Source: Bdellovibrio sp.
Lineage (GTDB): Bacteria > Bdellovibrionota > Bdellovibrionia > Bdellovibrionales > Bdellovibrionaceae
Assembly: GCA_003176075.1 (NCBI GenBank)
Contig: PSRN01000028.1
Location: 1-41,260, forward strand
Reading direction: 5' to 3'
Length of the DNA: 41,260 nucleotides
In this document: positions 31,945 through 33,337 of the stretch, piece by piece
Layout of the letters: the number at the start of each line of letters is the position of its first letter
Position numbering within the stretch: position 1 is the stretch's first letter
Program-made: the position numbers and the translations under genes
The notes under the pieces: generated by a model
What the model was told of the DNA's origin: nothing
Databases searched by the model: none
The model's input: only the letters and a program-made list of their open reading frames with translations

Positions 31945-33084
31945 CTACCATCCCAGATCTTTGAATCCCTTGGCCCAGGGCTGGCACCAAATTCCATCGA
32001 TCTTTACTTCCTTTTTTCCGAAATGAAAGAGAAGACATTCGCACCTCTTGCCAGCATGCTGCTGAAAATTCCGCAGACCTTTCACATCGGTGGAACTGAG
32101 GTGGTCGTTGCTTTTCACTTCGATGGCCCACATGTCTTTTTTACCGGAAATCACAAAGTCGACCTCCGCACCTCCCCTCGTGCGAAAGAATGAAATCTCC
32201 GCCGGGATTTCCCGATAGCGCAGAGCGGCCCTCAACTGATTGTAAATTATCGTTTCCGTGATCACGCCGCGAAGAGAACCTGAAACATCGAAATCCCTCG
32301 CCAGGCCGTTCATCACACCGTTGTCGAAAAAATAAAATTTCGGATGCTTAACGACGTCAGCTCCCGCGAAACCGGAATAGGAAAAAATTCTGTGGCCAAC
32401 CATTGTTTCTTCAATGATTTCAAAAAACCGGTGAACCGCGAACCGGTTCAGCTTGTACTTCTGGCTGATTTTTGAATAGTCGACGGGCAAACCGACGTAT
32501 TCAAGAAGGGCGCTCAGAAACCGGGTGAAGCCTTGAAGATTTCTCGTGAGGGCCTCTTGCTGGATCTCCTCCTTAAGGTAGTTCGCTGAATAGGACTCCA
32601 GGATTGATCTCTTGATGTCCTCATCATCCTCGGTCAAGATCCCAGGAAGAAATCCCCACTTTAAGATCTTAGGGGTATCGATTTGGTAGTTGAGTTCACG
32701 GGCGGTCAGCGGAAAAATTTCCTTGTTGATAATGCGGCCGGGAAGCAAGTTGGCTCCCCCACGTTTGAGCTTCCGGGCACTTGAGCCAGTGATCAAAAAG
32801 CGGAGTTTCTTCTCGTCAATGAGAACCTGAATGCTGTTCAGAAGGGAAGGAAAGCGCTGAATTTCGTCGACAAAAACTGTCCTTGGATTTTGTCGCTCAA
32901 TCTGGTCAAACAGTCGCCCCGGATCGGTGAGGAAATCCTGGTATTGGCGTTCATCGGCAAGGTTGACGGTGAGGTCTGGCGCAAGGGCTTTGAGCAAAGT
33001 TGTTTTTCCAGTTTGCCGGGGGCCTAGGAGAAGAATCGACTGCCGGATTCGCCCAATCTGCTCCTTTAAAATTCGTTCGATCAT
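31945..33084 (-). CDS. AAA_14/DUF4143 ATPase
   Basis: LLLGPRQTGKTTLLKAL, TVFVDEIQRFPSLLNSIQ, FLITGSSARKLKRGGANLLPGR, C-terminal DUF4143 with RGGAEVDFVI...AIEVKS. Confidence 0.95.
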   Translation of the reverse strand: MIERILKEQIGRIRQSILLLGPRQTGKTTLLKALAPDLTVNLADERQYQDFLTDPGRLFDQIERQNPRTVFVDEIQRFPSLLNSIQVLIDEKKLRFLITGSSARKLKRGGANLLPGRIINKEIFPLTARELNYQIDTPKILKWGFLPGILTEDDEDIKRSILESYSANYLKEEIQQEALTRNLQGFTRFLSALLEYVGLPVDYSKISQKYKLNRFAVHRFFEIIEETMVGHRIFSYSGFAGADVVKHPKFYFFDNGVMNGLARDFDVSGSLRGVITETIIYNQLRAALRYREIPAEISFFRTRGGAEVDFVISGKKDMWAIEVKSNDHLSSTDVKGLRNFQQHAGKRCECLLFHFGKKEVKIDGIWCQPWAKGFKDLGW

Positions 33085-33121
33085 ATGCTCAAATTTACAT
33101 GCAAATTGAGCATATGGTCAA
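33082..33121 (-). promoter_or_regulatory. Palindromic promoter containing the ATPase start codon
   Basis: CATATGCTCAAATTTACATGCAAATTGAGCATATG (33082-33116); on minus strand TTGACC, 18-bp spacer, TAAATT, 7 nt, ATG. Confidence 0.65.
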
Positions 33122-33132
33122 CCACGAGCGGC

Positions 33133-33337
33133 GGGGGAAAACTTCGCCTGCATCAAAAGCCCAACACTAAGGAAGTGAAGGCCTGTCGCCCCTGGCTTGA
33201 ACGCGAAATAGCCCTGGTCAAGCCGGCAGTTGTGATGGTCTTGGGGACCACAGCTGCCGGTTCCGTCTGCGGCCGAGCTGCGTGAAGACCTGGAAAGAGC
33301 CTGGCACAAAGCGCGTGAACGAAAGAGCACTCAATGA
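33133..33337 (+). pseudogene. Uracil-DNA glycosylase (UdgX/family 4-like) remnant with internal deletion
   Basis: GGKLRLHQKPNTKEVKACRPWLEREIALVKPAVVMVLGTTAAGSV resembles the UDG-family KRxxHxxP...ACRPWLExE...P.vvv.LG.tAA core; after a frame change, VPSAAELREDLERAWHKARERKSTQ* resembles the C-terminus. Confidence 0.75.

Follow-up and report, generated by a model that had tools for sequence, protein, structure and literature searches.

We propose, at a probability of about 0.85, that a palindrome overlapping the start of a DUF4143 ATPase gene is the autoregulatory operator of this gene, the encoded protein repressing its own leaderless promoter. The gene (31945..33084, minus strand; an ORF of 379 residues) lies in a 41,260-nucleotide contig of a Bdellovibrio sp., referred to here as the window, and belongs to the PDC-S01 family of PADLOC according to Pfam and PADLOC profiles. 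The proposal is based on sequence comparisons, which reveal a family-wide operator, its conservation together with the ORF, a coupling between operator bases and protein residues, the overlap with the promoter and the lack of a Shine-Dalgarno sequence.

A preliminary description of the window had reported a 35-bp palindrome over the start codon. The sequence matches this exactly, the true extent being slightly larger. The predicted operator is a 41-bp inverted repeat (33079..33119, minus strand, dyad at about 33099; minus-strand sequence TTGACCATATGCTCAATTTGCATGTAAATTTGAGCATATGATC). Its arms (33079-33095 and 33103-33119) are 17 nt each, 88% complementary and separated by a 7-nt spacer, and the inner 35-mer has perfect arms of 11 bp. 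The ATG start codon (33084-33082) is located in the right arm. The promoter TTGACC-N18-TAAATT, which had been claimed to overlap the palindrome on the minus strand, is likewise present, and the promoter scan found it once against an expectation of 0.1. Its −35-like box TTGACC (33116..33121, minus strand) partly mirrors the first codons (TTGACCAT / ATGATCGA), and the −10-like box TAAATT (33092..33097, minus strand) ends 7 nt before the start codon. A further, GC-rich inverted repeat is found upstream of the gene at 33223-33260 (CCGGCAGTTGTG / CACAGCTGCCGG).

The palindrome is the strongest inverted repeat of the window and the only one with a score of at least 12; three Markov-1 random windows contained one, none and none of this score. 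The full pattern occurs a single time in the source genome, a 3.29-Mb Bdellovibrionota draft which is 73% complete. Taken alone, the palindrome is unusual, yet a chance origin is not impossible. Chance is excluded by the comparison across DUF4143 genes, not by the window itself.

For this comparison we collected the upstream regions of 110 DUF4143 genes from the source genome and its family, and those of 142 other genes of the same genome, taken from 20 stretches, as controls. An inverted repeat with a score of at least 9 between −60 and +12 was found in 51 DUF4143 genes (46%) but in only one control gene (0.7%). As the G+C content of the DUF4143 upstream regions is 33% compared with 48% in the controls, shuffles of the same sequences were used to allow for the A+T bias; the same score was reached by 0.6% of them. 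The excess of repeats at the start codon extends to other members of the phylum. At loci of many other phyla, 27% have a repeat at the same threshold, compared with 1.3% of 76 genes at generic AAA loci. Inspection by eye also revealed such repeats on plasmids of Spirosoma, Dinoroseobacter and Pseudooceanicola and on two gut contigs deposited as phage. PF01637 was considered as a sister family and rejected, since in this phylum it gives mainly weak generic AAA matches; its loci served as control only.

The preliminary description had made conservation of the palindrome upstream of close homologues its test. The idea withstands this test in a modified form: the layout is shared by many DUF4143 genes, whereas the arms are hypervariable in sequence and common to fairly close homologues only. 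Operator arms differ greatly from gene to gene, some being near-perfect over 25–30 bp (L035, L094 and L016), and several operators are located entirely upstream of the start codon. With the strict threshold, about half of the DUF4143 genes have no strong repeat near the called start. Start codons were picked by program and some are wrong, and many of the compared genomes are metagenome assemblies; wrong starts and divergent operators explain a part of the repeat-less genes, although not provably all of them.

Several operator types recur among the compared loci. One type, CGTCATTT-gtcatgat-AAATGACG or near variants, is found upstream of L212, L219, L174, L213 and L201, on contigs labelled Acidobacteria, Gemmatimonadetes, Bdellovibrionota, Gammaproteobacteria and Nitrospirae; L219 and L201 also have the recognition helix VPRTTVYEYFEI in common. 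The Rhodobacterales loci L252, L257, L414 and L415, on chromosomes and plasmids, have a common CCTTGCAAATCTTCCA...TGCAAGGT directly before the start codon. Composite operators made of nested or tandem palindromes (e.g. AATATCCTAGTAGTACTAGGATATT, or repeated ATCGGCAAC..GTTGCCGAT) occur at L094, L076, L029, L117, L059 and L037 and suggest several bound dimers. In L075, L119, L123, L346, L378 and L385, the −35 box mirrors the first codons (TTGACCAT...ATGGTCAA), so that the symmetry of the operator would constrain codons 2–3 of the protein.

Promoter statistics would fit promoters of the leaderless type. TTGAC is present at −48 to −28 in 59% of the A3 and 30% of the A2 subfamily genes, compared with 4% of controls, and among the 37 genes of two subfamilies with a recognizable promoter the −10 box ends at a median of 7 nt from the start codon. 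Shine-Dalgarno-like 4-mers precede 2–4% of the genes of two subfamilies and 40% of the control genes.

The protein itself is best read as an AAA+ ATPase with a winged helix and a predicted PD-(D/E)XK nuclease domain. It matches PF13635 with 95.9 bits (cut-off 28.1) and PF13173 with 86 bits (cut-off 27), as well as the PADLOC PDC-S01 profile PDLC04790 (E-value 9.2e-57) and six more profiles; its relatives match the PDC-S01 profiles as well. Residues 15-131 form the AAA_14 ATPase domain (32692..33042, minus strand), in which G26 and K27 are invariant and D73 and E74 nearly so. The structural model (mean pLDDT 94.1, pTM 0.92) has this AAA+ domain at the N-terminus, a winged helix in the middle and, at the C-terminus, an alpha/beta domain carrying E307, D309, E322 and K324. 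According to the conservation pattern, these four residues correspond to a PD-(D/E)XK-type active-site motif (32113..32166, minus strand): among 64 proteins D309 is invariant and each of the other three is at least 90% conserved, and in the predicted structure they are placed on the expected strands (307-313 and 318-324).

The preliminary description stated that the protein has no obvious helix-turn-helix. This is wrong, as both the sequence pattern and the structural model (pLDDT 94) show a clear winged helix-turn-helix in the DUF4143 region, at residues 203-233 (32386..32478, minus strand; helices 203-209 and 214-226, strand 230-233). A Foldseek search with the model gave Cdc6/Orc1 bound to origin DNA (2qby_B), Avs5 (9jap_A), DnaA and RuvB as top neighbours and the nucleases Can1/Can2 at lower rank. 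TM-scores are low for all of these (0.24–0.37 for Cdc6/Orc1 and Avs5), and there is no close solved relative. Like the window protein, Cdc6/Orc1 and the STAND protein Avs5 have an AAA+ domain followed by a winged helix, but they do not have its nuclease domain.

Binding of each protein to its own operator should leave correlated changes in the residues of the helix-turn-helix and the bases of the operator. Taken over the full set of strong repeats, a Mantel test yielded a weak correlation (r about 0.09, P = 0.04–0.08), as the arms diverge too fast for a global test, and the analysis was therefore performed on subfamilies with a fixed operator frame, relatedness being handled by regression on pairwise identity. 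The window subfamily (56 genes) has the layout TTGACATGTG-NNN-A ... TAAAAT-NNN-CACATG, where the last ATG is usually the start codon. The triplet frame was first spotted by eye and then extracted by program. In the window gene, the left copy of the variable half-site triplet is CTC (GAG on the other strand; 33108..33110, minus strand), as delineated by subfamily comparison and column scan, and the right copy, from column scans, is GAG at −6 to −4 from the ATG (33088..33090, minus strand); their centres are 20 bp apart. Other triplets of the subfamily include AAC, GAA, GGG, GCA, GGA and GAT.

After regression on identity, the best partners of the triplet among 328 protein columns are residues 215, 218 and 213, which are located in the recognition helix. 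The result holds upon stricter triplet extraction, where residue 167 also rises. Conversely, the triplet is a stronger partner for residues 215 and 218 than any of about 305 distant protein columns, and in this subfamily the triplet scan is stronger than the single-base scans. Column scans thus assign the putative specificity residues of the window protein to positions 213-219 (N R F A V H R; 32428..32448, minus strand). The triplet AAC is paired with R-Q/E-S/T in ten proteins. Most of the GAG class have R-H-A/S, and a separate clade combines GAG with E-R-T/S-T/S. Proteins which are not neighbours in the tree agree as well: GGG with ERTSARR in L269 and L279, and GAA with RV[ST]A[KQ]R in L012 and L267.

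A second subfamily (57 genes, 332 protein columns) was collected as a replicate. Here, the best partners are base −6 with residue 214 (z = 10.5), −5 with 215 (z = 5.6), −4 with 213 (z = 6.7) and −3 with 216 (z = 5.1). At residue 214, Asp goes with C at base −6 in 16 of 17 cases, His with G in eight of eight, Tyr with A in four of four and Thr with T in five of five. In leave-one-out prediction of base −6, residue 214 gave the correct base in 81% of the genes; prediction from the nearest protein relative reached 66%, and always choosing the commonest base 33%. For bases −5 and −4 the helix residues were slightly better than the closest relative; for base −3 residue 216 was worse than the nearest relative. 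In the remaining mixed subfamilies, where the column scan used alignment scores of the operators instead of a fixed frame, the recognition helix was not picked out. The coupling in the two subfamilies is good, if indirect, support for a site specificity set by the protein's own recognition helix. Whether the palindrome is recognized by the ATPase or by a host factor was undecided in the preliminary description; the coupling of bases and residues points to the ATPase.

According to our model, the ATPase-winged helix-nuclease protein would bind the palindrome as a dimer via its own recognition helix, contacting two half-sites which are 20–21 bp apart on one face of the DNA. The bound dimer would cover the −35/−10 region and the transcription start of the leaderless mRNA, and in this way the gene is proposed to repress itself. 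Operator sequences would differ among paralogues, each fitting the recognition helix of the protein which it controls, and operator and ORF would travel as one cassette. We suggest that the ATPase senses a signal from an invader and thereby releases the operator, and that the protein is nuclease-silent while operator-bound. The simplest model would then be a self-repressed single-gene module.

In principle, a promoter-overlapping palindrome might also mediate activation. Repression is nevertheless the likely effect, since the promoter and the 5′ end of the predicted leaderless transcript would be masked by the bound protein. In a broader form of this alternative, the site would serve positive autoregulation or buffering, or mark the protein's real DNA target, with repression as a side effect. 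The same bases would then be conserved, the nuclease motif is apparently intact, and the fold is nearest to origin-binding Cdc6/Orc1 and STAND proteins. We consider this unlikely, because the half-sites overlap the −10 region and the start, which is the typical position for a repressor, and because the window operator pattern is found in its own genome at two DUF4143 promoters and three other places, the latter number being about the chance expectation.

It is similarly doubtful, though conceivable, that the operator is more than a thermostat, the ATPase-nuclease being off while its operator is occupied, and that the hypervariable palindrome acts as an identity tag, by which cassettes or elements carrying the protein's own operator are recognized and possibly attacked. 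If so, competition between modules and avoidance of cross-talk between paralogues would both drive the diversification of operator and helix. Insulation of paralogues was examined in 11 within-genome pairs of the second subfamily. None have the −6 to −4 core in common, but the rate seen between genomes (7.6%) would predict only 0.8 such pairs, which leaves the comparison without power. L336, a paralogue of the window gene in the source genome with 46% identity, has the same half-site TGCTCA-N15-TGAGCA (33086-33112 in the window, G000:C218:14612-14638 for L336), so that the two genes may cross-regulate.

Comparison of gene pairs indicates that operator-promoter and ORF, rather than a larger region, stay together. 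When the proteins are 60–75% identical, the start region (63 nt) is alike in about 75% of the pairs, but the region 200 nt upstream is alike in only 0–3% and that just past the stop codon in 0–4%. For 52 in-register pairs, identity is 0.57–0.82 over −40 to −1 and drops to the random level (about 0.25) upstream of −50. Start-region identity is thus kept while the flanks are unrelated, as expected for a unit in changing surroundings. The source genome has 32 DUF4143 matches. In a wider collection of genome contigs, relatives of the window protein were confirmed by an alignment-based scan, while a single-sequence scan with the window protein did not confirm any; the named relatives are Bdellovibrionales and allied lineages, which points to a bdellovibriont as the source. 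Copy number is extremely patchy, with about 30 in several genomes of the family and zero in most members of a related genus.

This patchiness (32 copies in the source genome against zero in most close relatives from another genus) and the unrelated flanks of operator plus ORF would also fit a mobile element which carries the gene and has the palindrome as its end or target site. We regard this as very unlikely. In 42 DUF4143 genes, the 300 nt following the stop codon never contained a copy of an arm, which speaks against transposon ends, and the repeat coincides with the promoter and has bases which track the recognition helix. That a host transcription factor rather than the ATPase binds the palindrome is highly improbable. 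Palindromic operators for other regulators are common at bacterial promoters, but the DUF4143 operators vary among paralogues of one genome and track the encoded recognition helix, in distant phyla too, so that no single host factor could read all of them. Least probable is an RNA hairpin hiding the start codon. The 41-mer folds as RNA at −15.3 kcal/mol (z = −5.3), but with a −10 box placed within the palindrome and ending 7 nt ahead of the ATG, transcription should not include the left arm. Moreover, a hairpin is not expected to show coupling of single bases to helix-turn-helix residues, and several operators are entirely upstream of the start codon.

The proposed self-repression resembles that of the autorepressing antitoxins of toxin–antitoxin systems, where the DNA-binding protein of a defence-type module also sits on a palindrome over its own promoter. 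In contrast to these, the DUF4143 protein carries DNA-binding, ATPase and nuclease domains by itself and needs no partner gene, and the start codon is part of its operator frame. Controller (C) proteins of type II restriction–modification systems likewise use small promoter-proximal operators which restrain a nuclease gene. A C protein is a distinct, lambda-cI-like regulator whose gene precedes that of the nuclease (PMC12255303), whereas in the proposed reading the DUF4143 nuclease-domain protein would be its own regulator. Transcriptional repression of phage defence genes is also exerted by BrxR/CapW, CapR (WYL) and RptR of defence islands, which are encoded by separate dedicated repressor genes (PMC12255303) and, unlike the DUF4143 protein, lack AAA+ and nuclease domains.

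According to PMC12988326, PDC-S01 combines an ATPase with a fused PD-(D/E)XK domain and ranks fourth among the most common defence systems across prokaryotes, experimental validation being pending for most such phage defence candidates. In the literature searched, we found no report of an operator or autoregulation for PDC-S01. The DUF4143 gene TT_P0211 on plasmid pTT27 of Thermus thermophilus is among the few genes induced by the presence of a plasmid in an Argonaute-positive strain (6.6-fold by RNA-seq; PMC4406477), and is a possible laboratory entry point. A DUF4143 gene on pTT27, TT_RS11170 (L409), which may or may not be TT_P0211, has a 9-bp perfect inverted repeat at about −58 to −36.

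The window palindrome is apparently one of a large, fast-changing set of operators, each read by the helix-turn-helix of the protein which it controls. DUF4143/PDC-S01 is a very common candidate defence family, and the term DUF4143 is nearly absent from the literature searched. If our reading is right, sequence-specific binding of the own promoter would be the first concrete biochemical activity for the family. It would provide a handle on DUF4143 expression in experiments, and the matched protein–operator pairs would be a natural library from which a winged-helix recognition code may be derived, nearly base by base. A genome may be able to accommodate 30 or more copies because each module brings its own switch. 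What switches PDC-S01 on becomes a testable question, and the operators suggest how a very common candidate anti-virus family is held in check.
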